In this document: positions 41,065 to 52,940 of the stretch, piece after piece | Position numbering within the stretch: position 1 is the stretch's first letter | How the letters are laid out: each line of letters starts with the position of its first letter | Source of the DNA: Lentisphaeria bacterium | GTDB lineage: Bacteria > Verrucomicrobiota > Lentisphaeria > Victivallales > Victivallaceae | Direction: 5' to 3' | Assembly: GCA_017456285.1 (NCBI GenBank) | Contig: JAFTJQ010000071.1 | Location: forward strand, 1 to 52,940 | Length of the DNA: 52,940 nt | Position numbers and translations under genes: made by a program | The notes under the pieces: generated by a model | The model's database searches: none | Told to the model about the DNA's origin: nothing | What the model saw: only the letters and a program-made list of their open reading frames with translations

Positions 41065-42783
41065 TTAAAATTGCGGAAGCGGGAAATCAGCAACAAAAGC
41101 TTTTACCTCTTCACCGATTGCACGGAGAGCCGCTTCATCATCACAAACTGCTACACTGCGTTCAATAAATTCAGCGATTTTCACCATTTCGGCTTCTTTC
41201 ATGCCGCGAGTGGTAACTGCAGGAGTTCCGATACGGATACCTGAAGTAACGAATGGTTTTTCGGGGTCGAAAGGAATCATATTTTTATTAACAGTGATTC
41301 TTGCCAAGTCAAGTGCATTTGCAACGACTTTGCCGGTAACCCCTTTGGGACGAAGGTCAACCAGCATCAAGTGGTTATCAGTTCCGCCTGAAACAATACG
41401 GAAACCACGTTTTGCCAACTCATCAGCCAATTTAGCGGCATTGAGTTTGACCTGTTTCTGATACTCTTTGAAACTGTCGCTCATTGCTTCGGCGAAACAG
41501 ATTGCTTTAGCAGCGATGACGTGTTCCAACGGGCCGCCCTGCATACCCGGGAAGACTTTTGAATTAATCGCTTTAATATGCTCTTCTTTGCACAAAATCA
41601 AACCTGAACGAGGACCGCGGAGAGTTTTGTGAGTAGTAGTAGTAACTACATCCGCATAGGGTACGGGACTCGGATGAAGTCCGGCTGCAACCAAACCTGC
41701 GATGTGTGCCATATCGACAAAAAGTTTAGCGCCGACTTTATCGGCAATTTCACGCAAACGCTTAAAGTCAATTACTCTCGGATAAGCACTTGCACCTGCA
41801 ACGATTAATTTTGGGTTGTTTCCAACTGCCAAACGTTCAACTTCATCATAATCAATGACTTCAGTCTCCTGTGAAACGCCGTAAGCAACGATATTGTAGA
41901 GAGAACCTGAGAAGTTCATCGGGTGACCGTGAGTTAAGTGACCGCCATGATCCAAACTCATTGCCAAAACTGTATCGCCCGGCTGAATCAATGCCATATA
42001 AACTGCCATATTAGCCTGTGAACCCGCATGGGGCTGTACGTTTGCCGCTTCAGCACCGAAAAGTTTGCAGGCGCGATCAATAGCAATCTGCTCAATTCGG
42101 TCGATAAATTCACAACCGTTGTAATAACGTTTTCCGGGATAACCCTCGGCATATTTGTTGGTCAAAACTGAACCTTGAGCGGCACGAACCGCACATGAAG
42201 TAAAGTTTTCTGAAGCAATAAGTTCGATTCCGTCAGACTGGCGAGCTGCTTCTTGGTCAATCAAAGCTGCAATTTCCGGGTCTTTAGCACGGATTGCTGC
42301 AATATCATCATAGGTCTGCTTCTCCAATTTGGTCAAACGGCGTGAATGACGTTCTTCTTTGCTGTAAGGAGTTGAAAACCAAGCTTTTGCGATTTTGCAT
42401 GCCGCAGCGGTGTCAAGTTTGTCGCCTGCAAGCACTAAACAGTTACTGCCGTTGTGGTTACGACTTTTGACAGCAGTTTCTTCATCTAAAGCAACTACCG
42501 AACGAACTCCGTGGAATCTATTTGCTACAATATTCATACCGACGCCTGAACGGCAGATAAGAATTGCTGCATTGCACTCTCCCGATACAATTGCTTTGGC
42601 AGCCTTTGCACCGAAATCGCAATAATCATCATCGCAATTCATCTCGTATGGACCGTAATCCACATAATCAATTTTTTCTGCTTCGAGGAATTTGATTAAT
42701 TCTTTTTTCATCTCGAATCCGCCGTGGTCAGTACCGATGGCTACTTTCAACTTGCTGTCATAAAAATCTACAACATTTTCCAT
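41065..42783 (-). CDS. glyA: Fused ribose-5-phosphate isomerase B / serine hydroxymethyltransferase
   Basis: One 572-residue reading frame holds two enzymes. Residues about 10-150 are RpiB, which interconverts ribose 5-phosphate and ribulose 5-phosphate: [31 protein letters not shown] (catalytic Cys near 77) and [14 protein letters not shown] (His near 110). Most RpiB proteins have Gly after this Cys; here it is Arg. Residues about 157-572 are a complete SHMT, making glycine and methylene-tetrahydrofolate from serine: [23 protein letters not shown], and the PLP Lys in [14 protein letters not shown]. No stop or frame change lies between them. In Bacillus the separate genes ywlE, rpiB and glyA are neighbours, which matches this locus. 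Confidence 0.93.
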
Positions 42784-43366: not shown

Positions 43367-43987
43367 ATGAAAAAACAGCCACAAGACGATTTTATTGAGA
43401 TTTTAACGGACAAATATCAGCTTTTAAGTCTCGATGAAAGCGACCTGATTCGTGAATTGGATTTGGGTTGCGGAGTCGGGTCATTCACTGCCGCTTTGGC
43501 ACAAAGATACCCCGAACGAAAAATTTTTGCCGCCGATGTGATGATCGGCAGACTTCGTAAACTTGTTAAACGTAATAAACGCATGGATGTCAATAATATG
43601 ACGATTTTGCGAGTTGAAGCCAGAAATTTAATTTCCTACATGTTTCCTGATAATTCATTGGATAGGATTCACTTTCTCTGCCCTGACCCGTGGCCGAAAG
43701 ATCGACACAGAGGGCATCGGGTGCTGGTGAGTGATTTTACTTCGCAAATCCACCGGGTATTGAAAGAGGACGGAGTTTTTCACTTTGCCAGTGATGATGA
43801 AGATTACTATGCAATGGGTAATAATGCACTCCGCATGTCCGGACTTTTCATTGAAGAAGTGCAGCATATCAGCGACATTGCCGATATAAAAAGTGATTTT
43901 GAAGTCCGTTGGCTTGCCGAGGGTAAAAAAGTTCACCATACCGCTTGGCGAAAAATTCCCCGTCCTGCCAAATCAATCGGACATTGA
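43367..43987 (+). CDS. trmB: tRNA (guanine-N7)-methyltransferase
   Basis: It methylates G46 in tRNA using S-adenosylmethionine. The 206-residue protein has ELDLGCGVGSFTAALAQRYP (SAM loop), the family-specific FLCPDPWPKDRHRGHRVL, and a C-terminal region with TAWRK. It is divergent from the phosphatase gene, with a 103-base shared upstream region. Confidence 0.93.
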   Translation: MKKQPQDDFIEILTDKYQLLSLDESDLIRELDLGCGVGSFTAALAQRYPERKIFAADVMIGRLRKLVKRNKRMDVNNMTILRVEARNLISYMFPDNSLDRIHFLCPDPWPKDRHRGHRVLVSDFTSQIHRVLKEDGVFHFASDDEDYYAMGNNALRMSGLFIEEVQHISDIADIKSDFEVRWLAEGKKVHHTAWRKIPRPAKSIGH

Positions 43988-44056
43988 TAAATAATAAAAT
44001 AGTTTAAAAATGCGAATGGGGATGAAAGTAATTTTCAAAAAAAACCATCGAAACTA

Positions 44057-44084
44057 TTGACATTTTAAAATTTAATGCTATAAT
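44057..44084 (+). promoter_or_regulatory. Consensus promoter of pseudopilin 2
   Basis: TTGACA (44057-44062) and TATAAT (44079-44084) have a 16-base spacer, with TGC before the -10. The surrounding ACTATTGACA and CTATAATA context matches the promoter at 18089-18116. Confidence 0.85.
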
Positions 44085-44186
44085 AAATTACAGACTTTAC
44101 ATTGATTGAGGTAACAACTGTCACTTCAAATCATTGTAAAAATCGCCAAAAGAGAGTAATTTTAACAAAACGAAAGGTCAAAAAAA
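44085..44186 (+). promoter_or_regulatory. Conserved 5' leader of pseudopilin 2
   Basis: About 100 bases of untranslated leader separate the promoter from the ATG. From 44114 it matches the inverted cassette at 18146-18261 with few differences. Short pairings are possible (TTAC with GTAA near 44098-44114), but no strong structure is evident. GAAAGG at 44172-44177 is the ribosome binding site. Confidence 0.6.
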
Positions 44187-44936
44187 ATGAAAAAATCTCT
44201 TTATTTCACCCTCATTGAATTGTTGGTGGTCATTGCGATTATTGCAATTTTGGCAGGTATGTTGCTTCCTGCATTAAACAAGGCTCGTGAAAAAGCCCGT
44301 GCAATTTCATGTGCTAATAATCAGAAACAGTGTCTTTTGACTATCGCTCAATATGCCGATGACCACAATGGTAATTTCACCGTTCGTTCACAAGGTGCGA
44401 AATGCACCCCGACTGCAGATCAATTGCCGGGCGGTAATGGGTATGTTTCGTGGGTGAATCGTTTACATGCAGGCGGATATAAGCTTTCTTTGCTGACTGC
44501 TCGCTGTCCTTCAATTTATGCTGATGCTTTGAGTGCAGATGATAAGGGTTCTCAGCGTGATAATACTTTCGGTATGCCCAGAGTATATTCATCATGGAAT
44601 ACTTATTTGGGCAATGCGATGACTCTTCCCTTGGAAGATGGTGCATGGAGCGGCAATTTGAATATTTATGATCTCAAGGGCAACAGAATGATTATGATTG
44701 ATTGTGCTTCAGTTACTGACGGACAGCCGAATCAATCTTTCCATTGGGAGCCTTCAGATGATGTTGCTGTGGTTAGTTATGCAACTTTTATCCATGGTGA
44801 TCGTGCCAATGTCGGATGGAGTGACGGTCATGTAGAAAGTATGACTCCGCAAGGCGTAAAAGATGAGCTTGAAGATAATGATTTCACTGCGAATTTCAAC
44901 TATTATCTCAGTGATTTTACTAAAAAATCTTTGTAA
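44187..44936 (+). CDS. Pseudopilin 2 (prepilin-type N-terminal domain)
   Basis: The 249-residue protein starts [24 protein letters not shown], a prepilin-type processing and transmembrane segment, then [18 protein letters not shown], a variable globular domain with several Cys and Trp, and the C-terminal [17 protein letters not shown] signature. The residue before the Phe is Tyr rather than the usual Gly of prepilins; the Glu at +5 is present. In Lentisphaerae such genes occur in many copies, often beside glycan-degrading genes, as here with GH38 downstream. It could be a secretion-pseudopilus subunit or an exported glycan-binding protein; function is not established. Confidence 0.85.
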
Positions 44937-44956
44937 TTCAACTTGACAGCAGTTTT

Positions 44957-44990
44957 ATAGGGACGGAAATTTTCCGTTCCTATTTTTTTT
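44957..44990 (+). terminator. Terminator of pseudopilin 2
   Basis: ATAGGGACGGAAA (44957-44969) pairs with TTTCCGTTCCTAT (44971-44983) with one G-T pair and a very tight loop, followed by TTTTTTT. Confidence 0.85.
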
Positions 44991-45086
44991 GTCTGTTTTT
45001 TAGAAATTAAAAATATTTTCTGCAAAAAAAATCAAAATGATTTTGCTCCGTCAGTGAGTTTTCGTTGTAAATTTTCAGAAAAAAAA

Positions 45087-45115
45087 TTGACTTTTTTATA
45101 ATGTGATAATATATT
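45087..45115 (+). promoter_or_regulatory. Promoter of the GH38-symporter-phosphorylase cluster
   Basis: TTGACT (45087-45092) and TATATT (45110-45115) have a 17-base spacer and lie 76 bases before the GH38 ATG. An overlapping TATAAT at 45097-45102 is too close to this -35. Confidence 0.5.
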
Positions 45116-45191
45116 ATGCAAACAGGTTTATGCTAAAAAGCATGCCGGTATTCGTTAAGTTGTTAATGATTAAAATGTTAGGGGAAATAAC

Positions 45192-48100
45192 ATGTTGAAG
45201 GAAGAATGGAAGATCTATGAAAATCGTTGTAAATATTTTTTAGGACGATTGGGAAATGATTATTATGATGATTATATTCAAATTACCGGGAAATACTCTA
45301 ACTACGGCAGTGAATTACTGCCATTCAAAGAAAAAGATACTTTAACTTATTCGGAAATTAGTGAGGGTGGCATCTGGGGACATGCGTGGGAGAGTGCTTA
45401 CTTCCATTTTGAGCATGAAATTCCTGCTGATTGGGCGGATAAGGAATTGGTTTTCCTGCTTAATTTAACAGGTGAAATTCTCGTTTTTGACAATTTCGGT
45501 GTGCCTTATTGCGGTTTAACCGGTACTTGTGCAATGCATGCTGATTACCATAAAGAGATGCTTTTTGTTGAGCCGTGGATGGTCAAAGACGGCAAATTAA
45601 ATCTTTGGTGCGAAGCATCTGCAAACCACCTTTTCGGTGTCCGTTTAGCAGGTGACCCCAATCGCCGTGAAGCAAAAAAGGTCAAAGGTTCGCTTAATGG
45701 TGATGTTCAGAAAATGCGTCTTTGTCTTTTTAACCGAGCAGTTTGGGAACTTAAAAACGATTTTGAAATTCTTTGGAATCTTTTCCAGAGTTTTCCTGAA
45801 ATGGGACATCAATCTAAACAGTTGCTTCACGCTATGACTCAAGCAATTAATGCTTACTCTGACAACCCCGATAATGCCGATAAAGCCCGTGCAGTTCTGC
45901 GTGAATACTGCGATAAACACAGTGCTGCGTCATCTGCACTTACAATTGCCGGAGTCGGGCATGCCCATATTGACGTCGGTTGGCTCTGGCCGGTGCGTGA
46001 ATCCGTTCGCAAGGCGGCTCGTACCTTTGCAAGTCAGCTTGAGTTAATCAGACGCTATCCGAATTATGTTTTCGGTGCTTCACAGCCGCAACTCTATCAA
46101 TTTATCAAAGACCACTATCCTGAACTTTACAGTCAGGTCAAAGCCGCCGTCAAATCAGGGAATTGGGAACTCCAGGGCGGTATGTGGGTTGAAGCAGACT
46201 GCAATATTATCGGCGGTGAATCAATGGTTCGCCAGTTTATTCACGGCAAAAACTTCTATATGGATGAATTCGGCGAAGATATTAAAAATTTGTGGCTGCC
46301 TGACGTTTTCGGTTACTCTGCCGCATTACCGCAGATTATCAAAAAAGCAGGTTGCGACTATTTCCTGACCCAGAAAATTTCTTGGAATCAATACAATGTT
46401 TTCCCGCACCACACCTTTATTTGGCGTGGTATCGACGGCAGTGAAGTCCTTACTCACTTCCCCCCGGAAAATAACTATAATGCCGATGTTTTGCCCGTCG
46501 CTCAAAACCAAGCTCAAGACAGATTTGCCGAAGCAGGTTTTTTGGATGAATTTGTTTCGCTTTTCGGTATCGGTGACGGCGGCGGCGGCCCGGCAATGCA
46601 CCATTTGGAAAGAGCCGAGAGACTTCAGAATTTGGATGGAGTGCCGAAGTTTAAGTACAGCAAAACGGCAGATTTCTTTGAACGCTTGGCGGCGAAAAAT
46701 CCGAAGTTGGCAAAGTGGGACGGGGAACTTTATTTGGAGATGCACCGTGGAACTTTGACCACTCAGGCTCTGACTAAACGCAATAATCGCCGAATTGAAC
46801 AGTTGTTGGCGGCAACTGAATTTATGTTGAGTATGTTGCCGTTGGATAAATACCCGATTGATGTTTTGGATAAGTGCTGGAAAAAATTATTAATCAACCA
46901 ATTCCACGACATTATCCCGGGGTCAAGTATCCGTGAAGTCTATGATGTTACCGAGAAGGAGCATGCGGAAGTTATTGCAACTTTGGAGAAATTGTTGCAT
47001 GAGACTGCACTTGAAGTTTCTGAAGCCGACGAAAACTCTGCACTTGTGGTCAATACTCTCTCTGATGTTTGGAGCGGAGTTGTCGAACTTCCTGAAACTT
47101 GGGCTGCTTATCAGGTGCTTGATGAAAATGGCAAAGTTTTACCGAGCGAGAGTGCCGACGGCAAGGTCAAAGTTCTGCTCGAAGTTGCTCCGAATGCAGT
47201 TACAACTCTCACAAAAGGTGAAAAAATCAGCGTTGCCGAAGCACTTGTATCTAATGAAAAAGTTTTGGAAAATAATCTTATTCGCTACACCTTTAATGAT
47301 TTGGGTGAAGTTATTTCCGCTTATGACAAAGAGGAAAATCGTGAACTTATTACCGATAAAGCAGGTAATGTCGTTACTCTCTATACTGACCGTCCGAATG
47401 TTTATGACGCTTGGGATGTGGATGTATTCTATCAGGAAGAGGAGAGTTTCCGCCCCTCTGCGGTAGAAGTTTCTGCGGTTTCTGTCGGAATGGTTGAATC
47501 AACCATGCAGATTGCTATGAAAATCGGCGTTTCTGAACTTAAACAGACTGTAAAACTTCGCAAAAATTCCAAACGTTTGGACTTTGTTACTGAAGTTGAT
47601 TGGCAGGAGTGCCGTAAAATGTTGCGAGTTAAATTCGGTGCCAATATTGAAGCAAGCGAGGGGGCTTATGAAATTCAGTACGGTTTCGTAAAACGGCCCG
47701 TACATGAAAATACCTCTTGGGATAAGGCAAAGTTTGAGGTTGTATCTCACAGATACTTCGACCTCTCTGAACGTAATTACGGTGTGGCGATGCTTAATGA
47801 CTGCAAATATGGCTGCAAAGCGAGACGCGGCGAACTTGATTTATGCTTATTGCGTTCACCGCTTTACCCCGATGCAAATGCAGATAGAGGCAAAAATATT
47901 TTCACCTACAGTTACTTGCCGCATACTGGTTCATTGGTCGAGTCCTGCGTAATGGCGGAGGCGGCTTCATTGAATCGTCAAGTCATTGTCGCTGACGGAC
48001 GCAAGGCAAAAATGGCGGCACCGGTTGTTTTGGAAAGCAGCAAAGTTTCTCTTGAAGTTGTCAAACGTGCCGAAAAAAGTAATAAATTGGTCTTGCGTTT

Positions 48101-48275
48101 AGTTGAGAGAGCAGGTGAAAATTCAACTGCGGTATTGAATATCAATAACAAAGTTAAATCTTTCGTTGAAACTAACTTACTGGAATGGACTAAGGGCAGA
48201 AGTTATAAAGTTGAAAATGGCAAAGTTGAACTTACTTTGAAACCGTTTGAAATTTTAACTCTGATTGAAGATTAA
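45192..48275 (+). CDS. Alpha-mannosidase, GH38 family
   Basis: The 1027-residue enzyme would hydrolyse alpha-mannosides. An N-terminal beta-sandwich region (about residues 1-250) precedes the catalytic domain. GHAHIDVGWLWP supplies zinc ligands (His 257 or 259 and Asp 261), WLPDVFGYSAALPQI holds the nucleophile Asp near residue 371, and NQFHDIIPGSSI lies near 570. The C-terminal half is the usual set of beta domains. No signal peptide is seen, so it is probably cytoplasmic and acts on imported oligosaccharides. TAGGGGAAATAAC precedes the ATG. The symporter gene follows after 146 bases. Confidence 0.93.
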   Translation: MLKEEWKIYENRCKYFLGRLGNDYYDDYIQITGKYSNYGSELLPFKEKDTLTYSEISEGGIWGHAWESAYFHFEHEIPADWADKELVFLLNLTGEILVFDNFGVPYCGLTGTCAMHADYHKEMLFVEPWMVKDGKLNLWCEASANHLFGVRLAGDPNRREAKKVKGSLNGDVQKMRLCLFNRAVWELKNDFEILWNLFQSFPEMGHQSKQLLHAMTQAINAYSDNPDNADKARAVLREYCDKHSAASSALTIAGVGHAHIDVGWLWPVRESVRKAARTFASQLELIRRYPNYVFGASQPQLYQFIKDHYPELYSQVKAAVKSGNWELQGGMWVEADCNIIGGESMVRQFIHGKNFYMDEFGEDIKNLWLPDVFGYSAALPQIIKKAGCDYFLTQKISWNQYNVFPHHTFIWRGIDGSEVLTHFPPENNYNADVLPVAQNQAQDRFAEAGFLDEFVSLFGIGDGGGGPAMHHLERAERLQNLDGVPKFKYSKTADFFERLAAKNPKLAKWDGELYLEMHRGTLTTQALTKRNNRRIEQLLAATEFMLSMLPLDKYPIDVLDKCWKKLLINQFHDIIPGSSIREVYDVTEKEHAEVIATLEKLLHETALEVSEADENSALVVNTLSDVWSGVVELPETWAAYQVLDENGKVLPSESADGKVKVLLEVAPNAVTTLTKGEKISVAEALVSNEKVLENNLIRYTFNDLGEVISAYDKEENRELITDKAGNVVTLYTDRPNVYDAWDVDVFYQEEESFRPSAVEVSAVSVGMVESTMQIAMKIGVSELKQTVKLRKNSKRLDFVTEVDWQECRKMLRVKFGANIEASEGAYEIQYGFVKRPVHENTSWDKAKFEVVSHRYFDLSERNYGVAMLNDCKYGCKARRGELDLCLLRSPLYPDANADRGKNIFTYSYLPHTGSLVESCVMAEAASLNRQVIVADGRKAKMAAPVVLESSKVSLEVVKRAEKSNKLVLRLVERAGENSTAVLNINNKVKSFVETNLLEWTKGRSYKVENGKVELTLKPFEILTLIED

Positions 48276-48421
48276 CAATAATTATTTGAGATAGAAAAAA
48301 TTATTCGTAAAGGTAAATAAACAGAGGAGAAAAAAGGAGGTAGGGAACAGAAGAAAAAAGAGAATAAAAAAATTGATTTGATTATAGGGTATTAATTAAA
48401 AAAAGAAAGGAAAAAAATCTA

Positions 48422-50284
48422 ATGGAATCAATTATTAATGCAATTAGTGAAGTTACTTGGAGACAATGGGTAGATTACAGCATTATTGCTCTCTACACAT
48501 TGGGAGTTATCGGTATCGGTATCTACTTCTCAAAAGAGAAAAAAGACTCCGAAACCTATCTTTTGGGCGGTCGTACAATGCCGTCATGGGCGATTGGTTT
48601 GGCATGTTTGATGTCGCTTTTCAGCTCAATTTCAATCGTTATGGTACCGGGCGAAATTTTTAATACCAGTTTGACACTTTTCATTGTCGGTGGATTTGTC
48701 GGACCGTTGTTGATTGTACCATGCTACTTGCTTTTTACCAAGTTCTACTTCCGTCTGGGCAGTTTTACTCCTTATGAATATTTGGAGTACCGCTACGACA
48801 AAGGTGTTCGCGGTATTGTGGCAATTTCAGCATTTTCAACCCGTATTATCTATATCGGTATGGTACTTTACACCTCTGCTAAAATCTTTGAAGCAGGTTA
48901 CGGCTGGGCTCCGTGGTTCTCAATTTTGCTTGTTGCAATTGTCGGTATTGTCTGCTGCTTCATCGGTGGAAGTAAAGCGGTTGTTTGGACAGACGTTTTC
49001 CAGGCAATCATTACTTTCGGCGGTCTTTTCGCGGTTGCAGTTATTCTTTGCGTCAAAATTAAGGGCGGTCTTTGGGGAGCAATTTCAGTTGCAGCACAGG
49101 ACGGACACTTCCTTCCTGACTTTACCAAACCGGAATTCTATACATTTACTCCGTATGTAAGATTGATTTTCATTCTTCTTCTCTGGGGTACAATTTCAAC
49201 TCACTTGACCAATGCGGCAAGTGATCAGGTAACAATTCAGCGTATTTTGAGTACCAAAAACTGGAAAGAAGGCTTGAAAGCCCAGTTGACTTCTGCGGCT
49301 TTGGGCTTGATTTTCATGTGTTTCCTTTACTTCATCGGTTTGGCACTTTACACCTATTACAAACAGTGTCCGGACGGCGAAATTATTCCTCCTCCGGTCG
49401 GTGCTCCGGAAGGATCTTTTGTTAAGGTTGGAGATAAGGCATTCTTCCACTTTGTTTCACAGTTCATGCCGGTTGGTTTGGCAGGTCTCTTTATGGCGGC
49501 GATGTTGGCAGCTATTATGAGTACCGTCAGCGGTGTTACCAACTCAATGGCGGCAGTTTGGTTGAAAGAATTCCATCAGAAATTCATTGACCCGAAAATG
49601 GATGGAGCAAAAGAGTTCAGAGTTCTCCGTACTTCAACTTTGATTATCGGCGGATTCGGTATTTTGGTTGCTTTGGGAATGGAATTTGCGGGTAAATGGT
49701 TACAGCAGTCTGTTTCAGAAGTTTCTACAATTTTCTGGGTTTTGGGTGCGGCAATTCTTCCTGCGTTCCTTTTCGCAGTTTGTTCAAAACGTGCTAACTC
49801 AGTTCTTATCTGGGCTTACACTTTCGCAGCATTGGGCGAAACAGTATTCTACAATATTTGGTATGCCCTCTCAAAAGATTCCTTGATTGCATGGCAGAAA
49901 GATCCATCAGTCGGTTTCGGCTGGGCAGGCAAAATGCCTTACTATTACATCGGAATCTGTGCAATTGTCGCAATTGCCTTGATTGCTCCTTATGCGGTTA
50001 AAGAATGGAGACATAAATGGAGTGTCAGAATTTCGGCTTGCTTGGGCTTGGTTGCTTTGGGAGCTACCGAAGTTATGATTGTCTGGTGCTTGTACAGTAA
50101 TTTCTGCATTACTGATACCCCGATGGCAAGAAGTTTCCAATTTGCTCCGCCGTTCTCATTGATTTTCGCAGTGATTGCACTTTTATTCTGTCCGGTACAG
50201 CCGAAGAAAAAATGGCAGGGACTTATTTTGAGTTCTGTCAATGATCCGATCATCAAAGATGAAGAAGAAGCAAAAGCAGAATAA
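48422..50284 (+). CDS. Sodium/solute symporter (SSS family)
   Basis: The 620-residue membrane protein has about 13 or 14 hydrophobic segments. LGGRTMPSWAIGLACLMSLFSSIS near residue 50 is typical of the Na+/solute symporter family, and AAMLAAIMSTVSGVTNSMAAVW carries the conserved segment of the sodium site. It has a short acidic C-terminal tail. Given its neighbours it probably imports a mono- or oligosaccharide, possibly mannose-containing. AAAGGAAAAAAA precedes the ATG; the phosphorylase gene follows after 30 bases. Confidence 0.88.
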   Translation: MESIINAISEVTWRQWVDYSIIALYTLGVIGIGIYFSKEKKDSETYLLGGRTMPSWAIGLACLMSLFSSISIVMVPGEIFNTSLTLFIVGGFVGPLLIVPCYLLFTKFYFRLGSFTPYEYLEYRYDKGVRGIVAISAFSTRIIYIGMVLYTSAKIFEAGYGWAPWFSILLVAIVGIVCCFIGGSKAVVWTDVFQAIITFGGLFAVAVILCVKIKGGLWGAISVAAQDGHFLPDFTKPEFYTFTPYVRLIFILLLWGTISTHLTNAASDQVTIQRILSTKNWKEGLKAQLTSAALGLIFMCFLYFIGLALYTYYKQCPDGEIIPPPVGAPEGSFVKVGDKAFFHFVSQFMPVGLAGLFMAAMLAAIMSTVSGVTNSMAAVWLKEFHQKFIDPKMDGAKEFRVLRTSTLIIGGFGILVALGMEFAGKWLQQSVSEVSTIFWVLGAAILPAFLFAVCSKRANSVLIWAYTFAALGETVFYNIWYALSKDSLIAWQKDPSVGFGWAGKMPYYYIGICAIVAIALIAPYAVKEWRHKWSVRISACLGLVALGATEVMIVWCLYSNFCITDTPMARSFQFAPPFSLIFAVIALLFCPVQPKKKWQGLILSSVNDPIIKDEEEAKAE

Positions 50285-50314
50285 TTTAATTTAAGGTTAT
50301 TCAAAAAATTAAAA

Positions 50315-52603
50315 ATGAAAAACAAATACAGTGAATTAAGTGCTGACGGTCTCTCCTTGCGGATTGACCGTCAGGCAACACCGTTCAACTGGGATAATTA
50401 CCTCTACAACCGTAGAGGTGATTTTTATTCTATTGTAGGGCAGAACGGTGCGGGGCGGCTTTGCTATAATTTTGAACGCAACATTGTGGCAAGGGGGCGT
50501 AATTTTTTAGTCAAAAGTGAAGACGGTTCAATCTGGTCAATTACCGGAGGTGCTGCTCCTTGCAAAGCGGAGAAATCACAAGTTATTCAATCTCCCGGCA
50601 AGTCAGAATTTTCGGCAGAGTATCAAGGCATTGCAGGTAAATTGAGTGTAGCAGTTGATCCTGATGAGTATGTCGAAGCTAATTTGCTTGAGTTGGAGAA
50701 TAAATCAGATAAAGCACAGACAATTGTTTTGACCGTTTGCAGTTTTGTCCGATTGGAGGGAGTCGATAATTCCCAGCAGCTTGACCAAACTTTCTATGAT
50801 GAATCAAACGGACTTTTTACCCTCCGCCGCTATCATAGCGAAAGTGCAAGAAATCGTTACAGTGCATTTTTTGCCGCTGATAAAAAGGCAGACAGCTGGT
50901 GCGGTTCAGAGGAGGATTTTGTCGGTGCGAATGTTCCTTTCCATGAGGCACTTGCACTTTACAGCGAAAATCTGCCTGCTGTTCATGCTTATTCATCACT
51001 CCCGATGTTTGCTTTGCGTTATAAACTTACTCTTCAAGCAGGCGAAAAAGTTTCAATGCAGTTTATTCTCGGTATCACCGATACAATCGAGGAAGCATAC
51101 GAGCAGGGCTTAATTTATCAGGAGTCAGGCAAGGCAGAAGCAATTATCGCAAGAGCGGAAGAGTTTCACCGTGAACGCTTAAATTGCGGTATGATCTCAA
51201 CTCCCTGCGAAACCTTGAATGCCGCTTATAATACTTGGACTAAACTCCAGCTCCTTAACCAAAACCAAAGTAAACGTCTTGGTACAATGCACAATTGGCG
51301 TAACAACTTGCAGGATGCAAGCGGAGCTTTGATTTTCTATCCGCATTTTGCGAGAGAGAATTTAATTGAGCTTGCCAAACTTACCTTGAAAGACGGTTTT
51401 GTCCCCCGTTCAACCCCGAAAAATGCAGGGGCGGTCGGTGCGATTGCCGCCGAACAGATGAAACAGCGTCATAATGATATTGGCTGCTGGTACGCTTTGG
51501 GGGCTGCTGATTATGTGCTTGAAACAGGTGATTTTTCAGTTTTGGGTGAAAAGGTTTTCAATCCTGCACGCAATAGAGAAATTACTGTTGCCGAAGCAGT
51601 GGCAGGTGGTCTTATCTGGGCATACAGTCAGCGTGGCATGAATGGATTGGTTCGTTTTATGGACGGCGACTGGAGTGATCCCTTGGAGAAAGCAGGTCGT
51701 CGTGGTATCGGCGAATCAGTTTGGACTTCATTTGCGGTAATCTATGCAACTAATCGTTTCGCTCCGGTTTTGCGTGTATTCGGCGAAGAAAAGTTGGCAG
51801 AACGTTTGGAAAAATGTGCCGTTGAAGTCGCTGAATCGTTGAAGAAAAATGCTTGGGACGGCAAGTGGTTCGTCCGTGGCATTACCGACGACGGGGTTAA
51901 GTTCTGTTGCGAAAGCGATAAAGATGCTCAAATCAGTATGTTGGTTCAAGCCTTTGCAATTCTTTCTCATGTTGCTGAGGGCGAACTTGCTCAAAGTTTG
52001 GTAAATGAACTTAAAAGCCGCAACCAAAGCGAGTATGGCCCCATGCTTTATGCTCCGCCGTTTTTGACCGAGCGTGACGGTATCGGGCGTGAGTCTGCTA
52101 AAAAACCGGGTACAGGCGAAAATGGTTCATGCTATACCCACGGGTCAATGATGTACACCGCTGCTATGCTGGAAGCAGGCGATGCCGATGAAGCACTTAA
52201 AACTATGCTTCAAATGGTGCCTTCAGCAGATGAAAAGGTTTGTGATGTCCGCTGGACTTCGCCATTGTGGTGGTGCAATTATTACCAAAGTCCATACGCA
52301 GGACATCCGGGACGAGGCAGTAATATTATCTCGTCAGGTGCTCCGGCTTGGTTTACCATGAATATTGCCAATAGATTTTTCGGTCTTGAGGCGGTGCTTG
52401 ACGGTCTTAAGGTTTCGCCTAAGTTCCCAAGTTCATGGAATGAAGCAAAAATCGAGAGAATTTGGCGTGGTGCAAAGTACATTGTTACTGTTAAACGCAC
52501 CGGCAGAAATTCAGTAAAACTTGATGGCAAAGAAGTTGCAAATGCAGTTCTGCCAATTCCTCAAGATAATTCTACACATATTGTTGAGGTAGAGATTGCT
52601 TAA
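50315..52603 (+). CDS. GH94-like glycoside phosphorylase
   Basis: The 762-residue protein resembles the cellobiose/chitobiose phosphorylase family, which cleaves glycosidic bonds with phosphate to give sugar 1-phosphate. An N-terminal beta-sandwich with YNFERNIVARG-like segments (to about residue 270) precedes an alpha/alpha barrel. MDGDWSDPLEKAGRRGIGESVW (residues about 449-470) matches the GH94 signature, with the catalytic Asp within GDWSD. SSGAPAWFTMN and LDGLKVSPKFPSSW near the C-terminus also fit. The linkage is unknown. In this cluster the donor product may be mannose- or glucose-containing. There is no signal peptide. Confidence 0.8.
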   Translation: MKNKYSELSADGLSLRIDRQATPFNWDNYLYNRRGDFYSIVGQNGAGRLCYNFERNIVARGRNFLVKSEDGSIWSITGGAAPCKAEKSQVIQSPGKSEFSAEYQGIAGKLSVAVDPDEYVEANLLELENKSDKAQTIVLTVCSFVRLEGVDNSQQLDQTFYDESNGLFTLRRYHSESARNRYSAFFAADKKADSWCGSEEDFVGANVPFHEALALYSENLPAVHAYSSLPMFALRYKLTLQAGEKVSMQFILGITDTIEEAYEQGLIYQESGKAEAIIARAEEFHRERLNCGMISTPCETLNAAYNTWTKLQLLNQNQSKRLGTMHNWRNNLQDASGALIFYPHFARENLIELAKLTLKDGFVPRSTPKNAGAVGAIAAEQMKQRHNDIGCWYALGAADYVLETGDFSVLGEKVFNPARNREITVAEAVAGGLIWAYSQRGMNGLVRFMDGDWSDPLEKAGRRGIGESVWTSFAVIYATNRFAPVLRVFGEEKLAERLEKCAVEVAESLKKNAWDGKWFVRGITDDGVKFCCESDKDAQISMLVQAFAILSHVAEGELAQSLVNELKSRNQSEYGPMLYAPPFLTERDGIGRESAKKPGTGENGSCYTHGSMMYTAAMLEAGDADEALKTMLQMVPSADEKVCDVRWTSPLWWCNYYQSPYAGHPGRGSNIISSGAPAWFTMNIANRFFGLEAVLDGLKVSPKFPSSWNEAKIERIWRGAKYIVTVKRTGRNSVKLDGKEVANAVLPIPQDNSTHIVEVEIA

Positions 52604-52617
52604 TTAATATTTCTTGA

Positions 52618-52660
52618 GGGGTGTTGCAAAATTTTTATATTTTGTTACACCCCTTTTTTT
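52618..52660 (+). terminator. Terminator of the phosphorylase cluster
   Basis: GGGGTGTTGCAAAAT (52618-52632) pairs with ATTTTGTTACACCCC (52639-52653) with a single mismatch, followed by seven T. Confidence 0.9.
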
Positions 52661-52757
52661 GTTATTTATGACACAATCAGCGGTTAATATTTATACTCTA
52701 TCTCTTTGAATTTTAGGGGTTTAATTATTGTTTTCTTTTTTTGAAAGGTGAGGGTGC

Positions 52758-52818
52758 TTAGGGGAGAGGAAAACTTTTCTTTCTTTTAATCAAGAAAAAA
52801 AGTTTTCCTCTCCCCTAA
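52758..52818. repeat. Perfect 21-bp inverted repeat with extended stem
   Basis: TTAGGGGAGAGGAAAACTTT (from 52758; arm of 21 bases to 52778) is repeated inverted at 52798-52818, with no mismatch. Inside it, TTTCTT (52780-52785) and AAGAAA (52792-52797) extend the stem past a single bulged C, leaving a loop of six bases. No T-run follows on either strand. Confidence 0.8.
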
Positions 52819-52847
52819 AAAAAATCAAAATTTTTTCAAATTTGAGT

Positions 52848-52875
52848 TTGACAATTTATTTTTTTGTAGTATATT
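52848..52875 (+). promoter_or_regulatory. Promoter reading out of the window
   Basis: TTGACA (52848-52853) and TATATT (52870-52875) have a 16-base spacer. An ATG follows at 52915, 39 bases downstream. Confidence 0.55.
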
Positions 52876-52940
52876 AATTATCACGTGGCGAAAAAACAAC
52901 GGTTGATTAAAAAATATGGTACATAAAACTAATCTTAACA

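Follow-up and report, generated by a model that had tools for sequence, protein, structure and literature searches.

A GH38 alpha-mannosidase, a sodium symporter and a GH94 phosphorylase are encoded in series in the window (the whole 52,940-nucleotide stretch of DNA analyzed, from an uncultured, Victivallaceae-related Lentisphaeria bacterium), and we judge it somewhat better than an even chance (probability about 0.55) that this unit serves to import acidic oligosaccharides and to phosphorolyze, through GH94, a disaccharide in which a beta-glucosyl residue is linked to a uronate or an aldonate. Gene order, family, clade, shared active-site letters and gene content were established by computation. 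The order GH38, symporter, GH94 proposed in a preliminary description of this DNA was upheld by an ORF check, with the three reading frames recovered at their reported places on the plus strand (45192-52603) and their Pfam families in agreement (Table 1). The absence of signal peptides, which had also been claimed, was borne out by eye for GH38 and GH94, the N-termini of which have no signal-like stretch.

Table 1. Positions of genes, predicted signals and active-site codons in the window
Feature	Position	Strand	Basis
Terminator-like hairpin after upstream prepilin-like gene	44957..44983	+	Scan; fold -19.7 kcal/mol for 50 nt
Two overlapping promoter-like sites before GH38, 10/12 each	45074..45115	+	Consensus match only, hardly above chance in region
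GH38 alpha-mannosidase, 1027 aa, Ams1-like	45192..48275	+	Pfam and sequence matches
SSF sodium:solute symporter, 620 aa	48422..50284	+	Pfam and TIGR00813
GH94 phosphorylase, 762 aa, predicted acid-acceptor type	50315..52603	+	Pfam, alignments, tree
Asn330 codon, subsite -1 position, Asp in most GH94	51302..51304	+	Alignment; Asn also in SdCBAP
GDWSDP codons, residues 451-456: catalytic Asp455, subclade Ser454, clade Pro456	51665..51682	+	Alignment
Arg592 to Lys596 codons	52088..52102	+	Aligned with SdCBAP Arg609/Lys613
Hairpin with T run downstream of GH94, at the end of the unit	about 52616..52661	+	Fold -21.8 kcal/mol for 60 nt

The SSF and GH94 genes were found to be spaced by 30 bases and the GH38 and SSF genes by 146 bases, and the three form a single stretch flanked by two hairpins. 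Since they lie in order between these terminator-like hairpins, the unit looks complete and is apparently a closed three-gene catabolic operon, the cotranscription of which we infer. The hairpin after GH94 was missed by the terminator scan because it falls outside the loop limit of 8 used there. Terminator-like sites numbered 15 in the scanned region compared with 8.8 (SD 3.0) in shuffled sequences, and promoter-like sites 23 compared with 17.7 (SD 4.2). One scan site, a terminator-like hairpin at 50396-50423, lies within the start of GH94. Weak promoter-like sites (9/12) were detected at 48255-48301, at the beginning of the GH38-SSF gap; thus, the SSF-GH94 pair may be transcribed from its own promoter. 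An Rfam search of positions 43900-52940 gave zero matches at the gathering level.

The GH94 product matched both the catalytic domain (PF17167, 174 bits, cut-off 27) and the supersandwich domain (PF06165, 98 bits, cut-off 23) of the family above their curated cut-offs. The alignment rows were part of 57 listed GH94 places, from which (i) copies (L004, L005 and L028 among them) and (ii) L026 and L027, at less than 500 aa, were dropped; L025, which has no residue 596, was excluded from the tree and signature counts, and regions H1 to H3 entered no count. In the resulting tree, the window enzyme fell into an 11-row clade (support 100/98) with SdCBAP of Saccharophagus degradans, the sole cellobionic acid phosphorylase (CBAP) reference, the other two known CBAPs (from Xanthomonas and Neurospora) and solabiose phosphorylase being absent from the set. 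This clade stood apart from cellobiose phosphorylase (CBP), chitobiose phosphorylase and cyclic glucan synthase, and it was kept at 0.98 by FastTree after removal of six signature columns. The tree check suggested in the preliminary description thus places the enzyme outside the cellobiose phosphorylase group, as represented by a single reference (CtCBP). Within the clade, the window enzyme belongs to a separate 7-row subclade (100/100) that does not include SdCBAP, which groups instead with L049 and L050 (100/99). Judged from these relationships, the window GH94 most likely belongs to a subfamily that is sister to cellobionic acid phosphorylase. In literature searches on acid-type GH94 beyond CBAP, GH94 with GH38, and Lentisphaerae GH94, the subfamily was not recognized in titles or the beginnings of abstracts. 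A plasmid search was also performed, in which GH94 identity was below 60% in all 169 records and at best 26% among the 20 matches listed; 13 of these 20 carry a glucoamylase-family or cyclic glucan synthetase annotation or, in one case, that of glycoside hydrolase family 94.

Comparison with solved structures gave SdCBAP as the best chain by sequence (4zle, 257 bits vs 166 for the best cellobiose phosphorylase) and by profile score (416 vs 327 for chitobiose phosphorylase and 323 for cellobiose phosphorylase). When the AlphaFold model was examined with Foldseek, 4zlf and 4zle took ranks 1-2 with a marginal lead over cellobiose phosphorylase, while the TM-scores of the predicted fold were higher for cellobiose phosphorylase than for SdCBAP; the model, built from a 5-row alignment, is weak around the active site (mean pLDDT 62.9). 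The window enzyme and SdCBAP are only 26% identical, and the acceptor choice is therefore not readable from the latter.

The active-site letters were compared across the 38 GH94 rows in which residue 596 is represented (11 clade and 27 other). Catalytic Asp455 was found in 38/38 rows, and Asp455, Glu602, Tyr607 and His609 are all kept in the window enzyme, with the phosphate-site residues Tyr607 and His609 agreeing with the printed residues in order and spacing. The GDWSD motif pointed out earlier is present at residues 451-455. At the position between Trp and the catalytic Asp, 28 rows have Asn and 7 have Ser, with a single row each for Phe, Asp and Cys; on this alignment the Ser is a mark of the subclade only, and the information lies in Asn330, Pro456 and Lys596. 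These three occur together in 11/11 clade rows and 0/27 other rows, the same distribution as that of Asn330, which matches SdCBAP Asn350. Three alignments pair Lys596 and Arg592 with SdCBAP Lys613 and Arg609, which we take to be the carboxylate clamp of that enzyme; Arg592 on its own occurs in 20/38 rows and is nondiagnostic. The replacement of Asp by Asn is a stated feature of SdCBAP, and 4ZLI is SdCBAP with glucosyl-beta-1,3-glucuronic acid (both in PMC8741936). The SdCBAP clade has Pro right after the catalytic Asp; in cellodextrin phosphorylase the residue at that place contacts the +1 sugar (PMC5667895).

The searches for gluconate kinase, UxaC, UxuA, GH88, PL8 and GH130 covered the host's own genome only, with control genomes for reference. 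UxaC (478 bits) and UxuA (411 bits) were both detected, on contigs other than that of the GH38-SSF-GH94 operon, which itself has no uronate gene; UxaC was also matched in 7 and UxuA in 5 of 14 control genomes. A P-loop gluconate kinase had zero matches in the host genome (5 controls matched), and host matches to the FGGY family all lay below the cut-off, although such a below-cut-off kinase could act on gluconate. A hexuronate is a likelier product than gluconate. In the proposed route, (i) the sodium symporter would import a small acidic oligosaccharide; (ii) GH94, with Asp455 as general acid, would split the beta-glucosyl bond with inorganic phosphate, giving alpha-glucose 1-phosphate and a sugar acid that would be held at subsite +1 by Arg592/Lys596; (iii) the freed hexuronate, of glucuronate type, would pass to UxaC and UxuA; and (iv) GH38 would remove alpha-mannosyl residues, either from the glycan so imported or from a different one met simultaneously.

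The symporter scored 143 bits with the SSF Pfam model and 213 bits with TIGR00813, above the cut-off of the latter. An SSF gene directly adjoins GH94 in 3 of the 7 subfamily loci (the window, C3 and G133) and lies within about 6.5 kb in 2 further loci (L051 and L054); the sequence fetched for G018 and G030 contained none. At G133, the symporter belongs to another SSF type, similar to those beside GH38 (C25 of the host genome) and near cellobiose phosphorylase (C36). Given this likeness and the lack of an SSF in those two fetched stretches, pairing with SSF is no specific trait of this GH94. The regulators beside the subfamily relatives name no acid: those of L051 and L054, GntR proteins of the FCD type, scored best with a phosphonate-associated model (80 and 79 bits, below cut-off) vs 26 and 23 bits with UxuR.

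The GH38 product scored over the cut-off with GH38N (298 bits) and three other GH38 domains, and its match to fungal Ams1 reached 493 bits. In the fetched stretches of 20 other GH38-orthologue loci, GH38 was present in all 20 and an SSF adjoined it in two (C25 of the host genome and G034:C12), while GH94 was found in 0/20, in agreement with a tblastn repeat; one flank was shortened in several of these loci because a contig end lies close to GH38. At L104, a longer antisense ORF overlies GH38. The link of GH38 to the GH94 substrate is weak. GH130 is the family of known mannoside phosphorylases, and three separate GH130 genes were found in the host genome. The reading of the locus as a mannoside-processing cluster was not sustained, as GH94 groups with SdCBAP and is absent from the fetched stretches of the 20 other GH38 loci. 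What remains of that proposal is the GH94 family, a clade outside the cellobiose phosphorylases and the plausibility of an undescribed specificity; the GH38 loci and GH130 genes argue against letting the alpha-mannosidase name the phosphorylase's sugar. It is accordingly very improbable that GH94 is itself a mannoside phosphorylase that takes mannose 1-phosphate as its donor and has a mixed mannosyl oligosaccharide as substrate. Such an activity would suit the presence of GH38 between the same hairpins and the GH94 laminaribiose phosphorylase solved with mannose 1-phosphate (6gh3, by its title), but the residues conserved at subsite -1 in glucosyl enzymes are retained, save for the Asn common to SdCBAP.

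Three other explanations were weighed. A plain cellobionic acid phosphorylase with gluconate as acceptor (EC 2.4.1.321) is unlikely: the window enzyme shares the clade and three signature residues of SdCBAP, but its subclade excludes SdCBAP, the genome has neither a P-loop gluconate kinase match nor an FGGY match over the cut-off, and cellobionic acid is a product of cellulose oxidation. We also doubt that the enzyme is a new phosphorylase sharing this fold but using a neutral acceptor, its acid-type residues inherited and reused. Solabiose phosphorylase shows that GH94 acceptors change freely (PMC8741936), and the low identity to SdCBAP would allow such a change; however, Lys596 is kept throughout the 11 clade rows, which span Victivallaceae relatives, a Planctomycetes MAG and SdCBAP. 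GH38 and GH94 are both held by the Ruminococcaceae UCG13 xanthan locus (PMC10881899), and the pairing alone is therefore no novelty. A xanthan-type end pathway as in UCG13, with GH38 freeing cellobiose from Man-alpha-1,3-cellobiose and GH94 splitting the cellobiose, was rejected as highly unlikely here despite this printed precedent. Gene content is against it: the host genome had zero matches to GH88/GH105 (3 controls matched) and to PL8 (no control matched either), the window GH94 is not of cellobiose type, and a separate true cellobiose phosphorylase is encoded at C36 (1009 bits to 3qde).

A bolder version of the acidic-disaccharide reading is offered tentatively, at well under even odds: the window enzyme, together with six relatives, may make up a GH94 subfamily, as yet undescribed, of beta-glucosyl-hexuronate phosphorylases (e.g., acting on glucosyl-beta-1,3-glucuronate) that yield glucose 1-phosphate and glucuronate, in a host that feeds on acidic heteroglycans and uses GH38 to cut off their alpha-mannosyl caps. 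If true, a uronate-directed branch would be added to the GH94 phosphorylases, and Victivallaceae-type bacteria would have an ATP-saving route for acidic disaccharides. The enzyme might then serve as a catalyst in the synthesis of glucosyl-uronates from glucose 1-phosphate, and the three-residue mark might separate acid-type GH94 genes from those of cellobiose phosphorylases.

Among known systems, SdCBAP (4ZLE, 4ZLF, 4ZLG and 4ZLI) is in the same clade and shares the catalytic and phosphate residues, the Asn at the -1 Asp position, the Pro after the catalytic Asp and the Lys at position 613. The window enzyme differs in having Ser for Cys before the catalytic Asp and Glu593 for Val610, in its low identity and own subclade, and in its setting with a symporter and GH38 in a genome where a gluconate route is not evident. 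Cellobiose phosphorylase (3QDE, 2CQS) has the fold, catalytic Asp and phosphate-site His in common with it but belongs to another clade, with Asp rather than Asn, Cys rather than Pro and no Lys at 596. The UCG13 xanthan locus (GH38, GH94, GH88, PL8 and GH5) similarly combines GH38 and GH94; it differs in its GH94 type, in the GH88 and PL8 unmatched in the host genome, and in using ABC transport where the window has SSF. The GH130 mannoside phosphorylases share phosphorolysis of beta-glycosides with the window enzyme and differ in family.

The GH94 phosphorylase, to which no NCBIfam model gave a name, was closest among solved chains to 4zle (257 bits by sequence search, with the best cellobiose phosphorylase at 166 bits). 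A profile of this enzyme and four relatives returned 4zle at 416 bits, chitobiose phosphorylase at 327 and cellobiose phosphorylase at 323. The 4zle entry is labeled a putative β-glycan phosphorylase; it is identified by structure titles, and by a table in the available part of PMC8950772, as the cellobionic acid phosphorylase (CBAP) of Saccharophagus degradans (SdCBAP), with which the window enzyme shares 26% identity. In a 38-row GH94 tree that included SdCBAP as the only one of the three known CBAPs and lacked solabiose phosphorylase, the two enzymes fell into one clade of 11 rows (support 100/98), including: (i) a subclade of 7 rows with the window enzyme (100/100); and (ii) a separate group of SdCBAP with L049 and L050 (100/99), joined by the long-branched L010 (91/78). 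Both the 11-row clade (0.98) and the 7-row subclade (1.0) remained intact by FastTree after removal of six signature columns. The enzyme of contig C36 of the same genome clustered with cellobiose phosphorylase (100/100); another GH94, on contig C92 (L037 13495-18035), lies outside the CBAP clade and follows an alpha-rhamnosidase-like gene. Foldseek, run with an AlphaFold model that is weak at the active site, ranked 4zlf and 4zle at the top by a narrow lead, with higher TM scores for cellobiose phosphorylases. The function of the enzyme is a prediction.

Asn330, Pro456 and Lys596 (window numbering) occurred jointly in all 11 clade rows and in none of the 27 others, three of which were references. 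Lys596 and Arg592 aligned with SdCBAP Lys613 and Arg609, which reportedly hold the carboxylate of the acid; Arg592 by itself is little informative, being present in 20/38 rows. Asn330 occupies the position of SdCBAP Asn350, where most GH94 enzymes have Asp according to the accessible text of PMC8741936. Pro456 directly follows the catalytic Asp, a position at which the Cys of cellodextrin phosphorylase touches the +1 sugar (PMC5667895, in part). The preliminary description had rightly noted Ser in the GDWSD motif where many members carry Asn (28/38 rows); this Ser marks the 7-row subclade, and SdCBAP has Cys. Retention of the subsite −1 residue Glu602 points to glucose as the probable donor. 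This Glu is found in 36/38 rows; the exceptions, L006 and L007 (subfamily members of G018 and G030), have Val, which hints at another donor.

The described order of GH38, sodium symporter (SSF) and GH94 was confirmed, with all three on the + strand of the window, which spans the entire contig C65 of a 2.42-Mb, 98% complete genome. The unit seems complete, with no partner apparently missing. Gaps are 146 bases (GH38-SSF) and 30 bases (SSF-GH94). A single transcript is only likely, as promoter-like sites in the region hardly exceed chance (23 versus 17.7 expected, sd 4.2), weak ones are also present at 48255-48301, and the start of the GH94 gene contains a terminator-like hairpin of 12 pairs with a T-rich run after it (50396-50423). 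Prepilin-like genes repeatedly adjoin carbohydrate genes (six loci). A 572-aa ORF (41065-42783, − strand) fusing an RpiB-type sugar-phosphate isomerase (residues 14-153) to serine hydroxymethyltransferase (residues 165-540) struck us as unusual.

Features of the window and prepilin-like genes of other loci (L numbers, fetched loci)
Feature	Location	Strand	Basis
Hairpin with T run, 5′ of GH38	44957-44983		scan for terminator-like sites
Promoter-like sites, 5′ of GH38	45074-45115		scan for promoter-like sites
GH38	45192-48275	+	ORF and domain match
SSF symporter	48422-50284	+	ORF and domain match
GH94	50315-52603	+	ORF and domain match
Hairpin with T run, 3′ of GH94	~52616-52661		sequence and fold
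Prepilin-like	window 44187-44936		Pfam and NCBIfam prepilin N-terminal models
Prepilin-like	L035 5788-6618		gene start
Prepilin-like	L037 5908-6726		gene start
Prepilin-like	L039 12327-13181		gene start
Prepilin-like	L051 13134-13946		gene start
Prepilin-like	L054 7898-8707		gene start

GH38 had been taken to hint at the sugar of the phosphorylase. GH38 orthologues are widespread (76/137 genomes, E ≤ 1e-60); in 20 fetched loci of other orthologues GH94 was absent and SSF adjoined GH38 in two. The exo-alpha-glycosidase near the phosphorylase differs between loci, which speaks against inferring the sugar from GH38. The GH94 subfamily is rare, in 4/137 genomes of the order (E ≤ 1e-90), with six matches among 387 genomes drawn from the phylum (E ≤ 1e-80), two of which (L049 and L050) group with SdCBAP. 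SSF immediately adjoins GH94 in three of seven subfamily loci (the window, contig C3 of the same genome and G133). In both GWF2_42_9 copies the two genes are separated by about 5 to 6.5 kb, and in G018 and G030 the sequence fetched around GH94 showed no SSF. The C3 pair (L035 9340-16402; 55% and 50% identity) precedes an alcohol dehydrogenase and a GH31/GH36-clan protein. LacI is near GH94 in G018 and G133. The G133 symporter is of a different SSF type from that of the window, and the G133 type recurs beside GH38 (C25 of the same genome and G034:C12) and near the C36 cellobiose phosphorylase; SSF is therefore a common companion here and no proof of one substrate. In both GWF2_42_9 copies (L051 and L054) the next gene encodes a GntR regulator with an FCD domain (best NCBIfam model phosphonate-associated, below cut-off); L054 also has a GH29 fucosidase after GH94 and a short-chain dehydrogenase (best model gluconate 5-dehydrogenase, 200 versus 279, below cut-off).

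As for the acid acceptor, a hexuronate is the better guess, because the genome encodes single copies of UxaC (478 bits) and UxuA (411 bits), by which it could plausibly use hexuronates, had no match to P-loop gluconate kinase (5/14 controls matched) and had only FGGY matches under the cut-off (best 139 versus 649 bits), and because a structure of SdCBAP was solved with glucosyl-beta-1,3-glucuronic acid (4ZLI; PMC8741936, in part). At L056 5626-8478 and L057 6061-8949, GH94 genes that cluster with SdCBAP (from G202 and G269) adjoin proteins with right-handed beta-helix matches, which may act on uronans.

Mannoside phosphorylases belong to GH130 in the available part of PMC8950772, and the genome holds three GH130. 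The available text of PMC10881899 places GH38 with GH94 in the xanthan locus of Ruminococcaceae UCG13, whose pathway employs GH88 and PL8. The present genome differs in having no match to GH88 or to PL8, the latter absence being less sure as no control genome matched either; it resembles UCG13 in pairing GH38 with GH94. In the UCG13 pathway, GH88 and GH38 act to leave cellobiose, which goes to a cellobiose phosphorylase (PMC10881899, same text).
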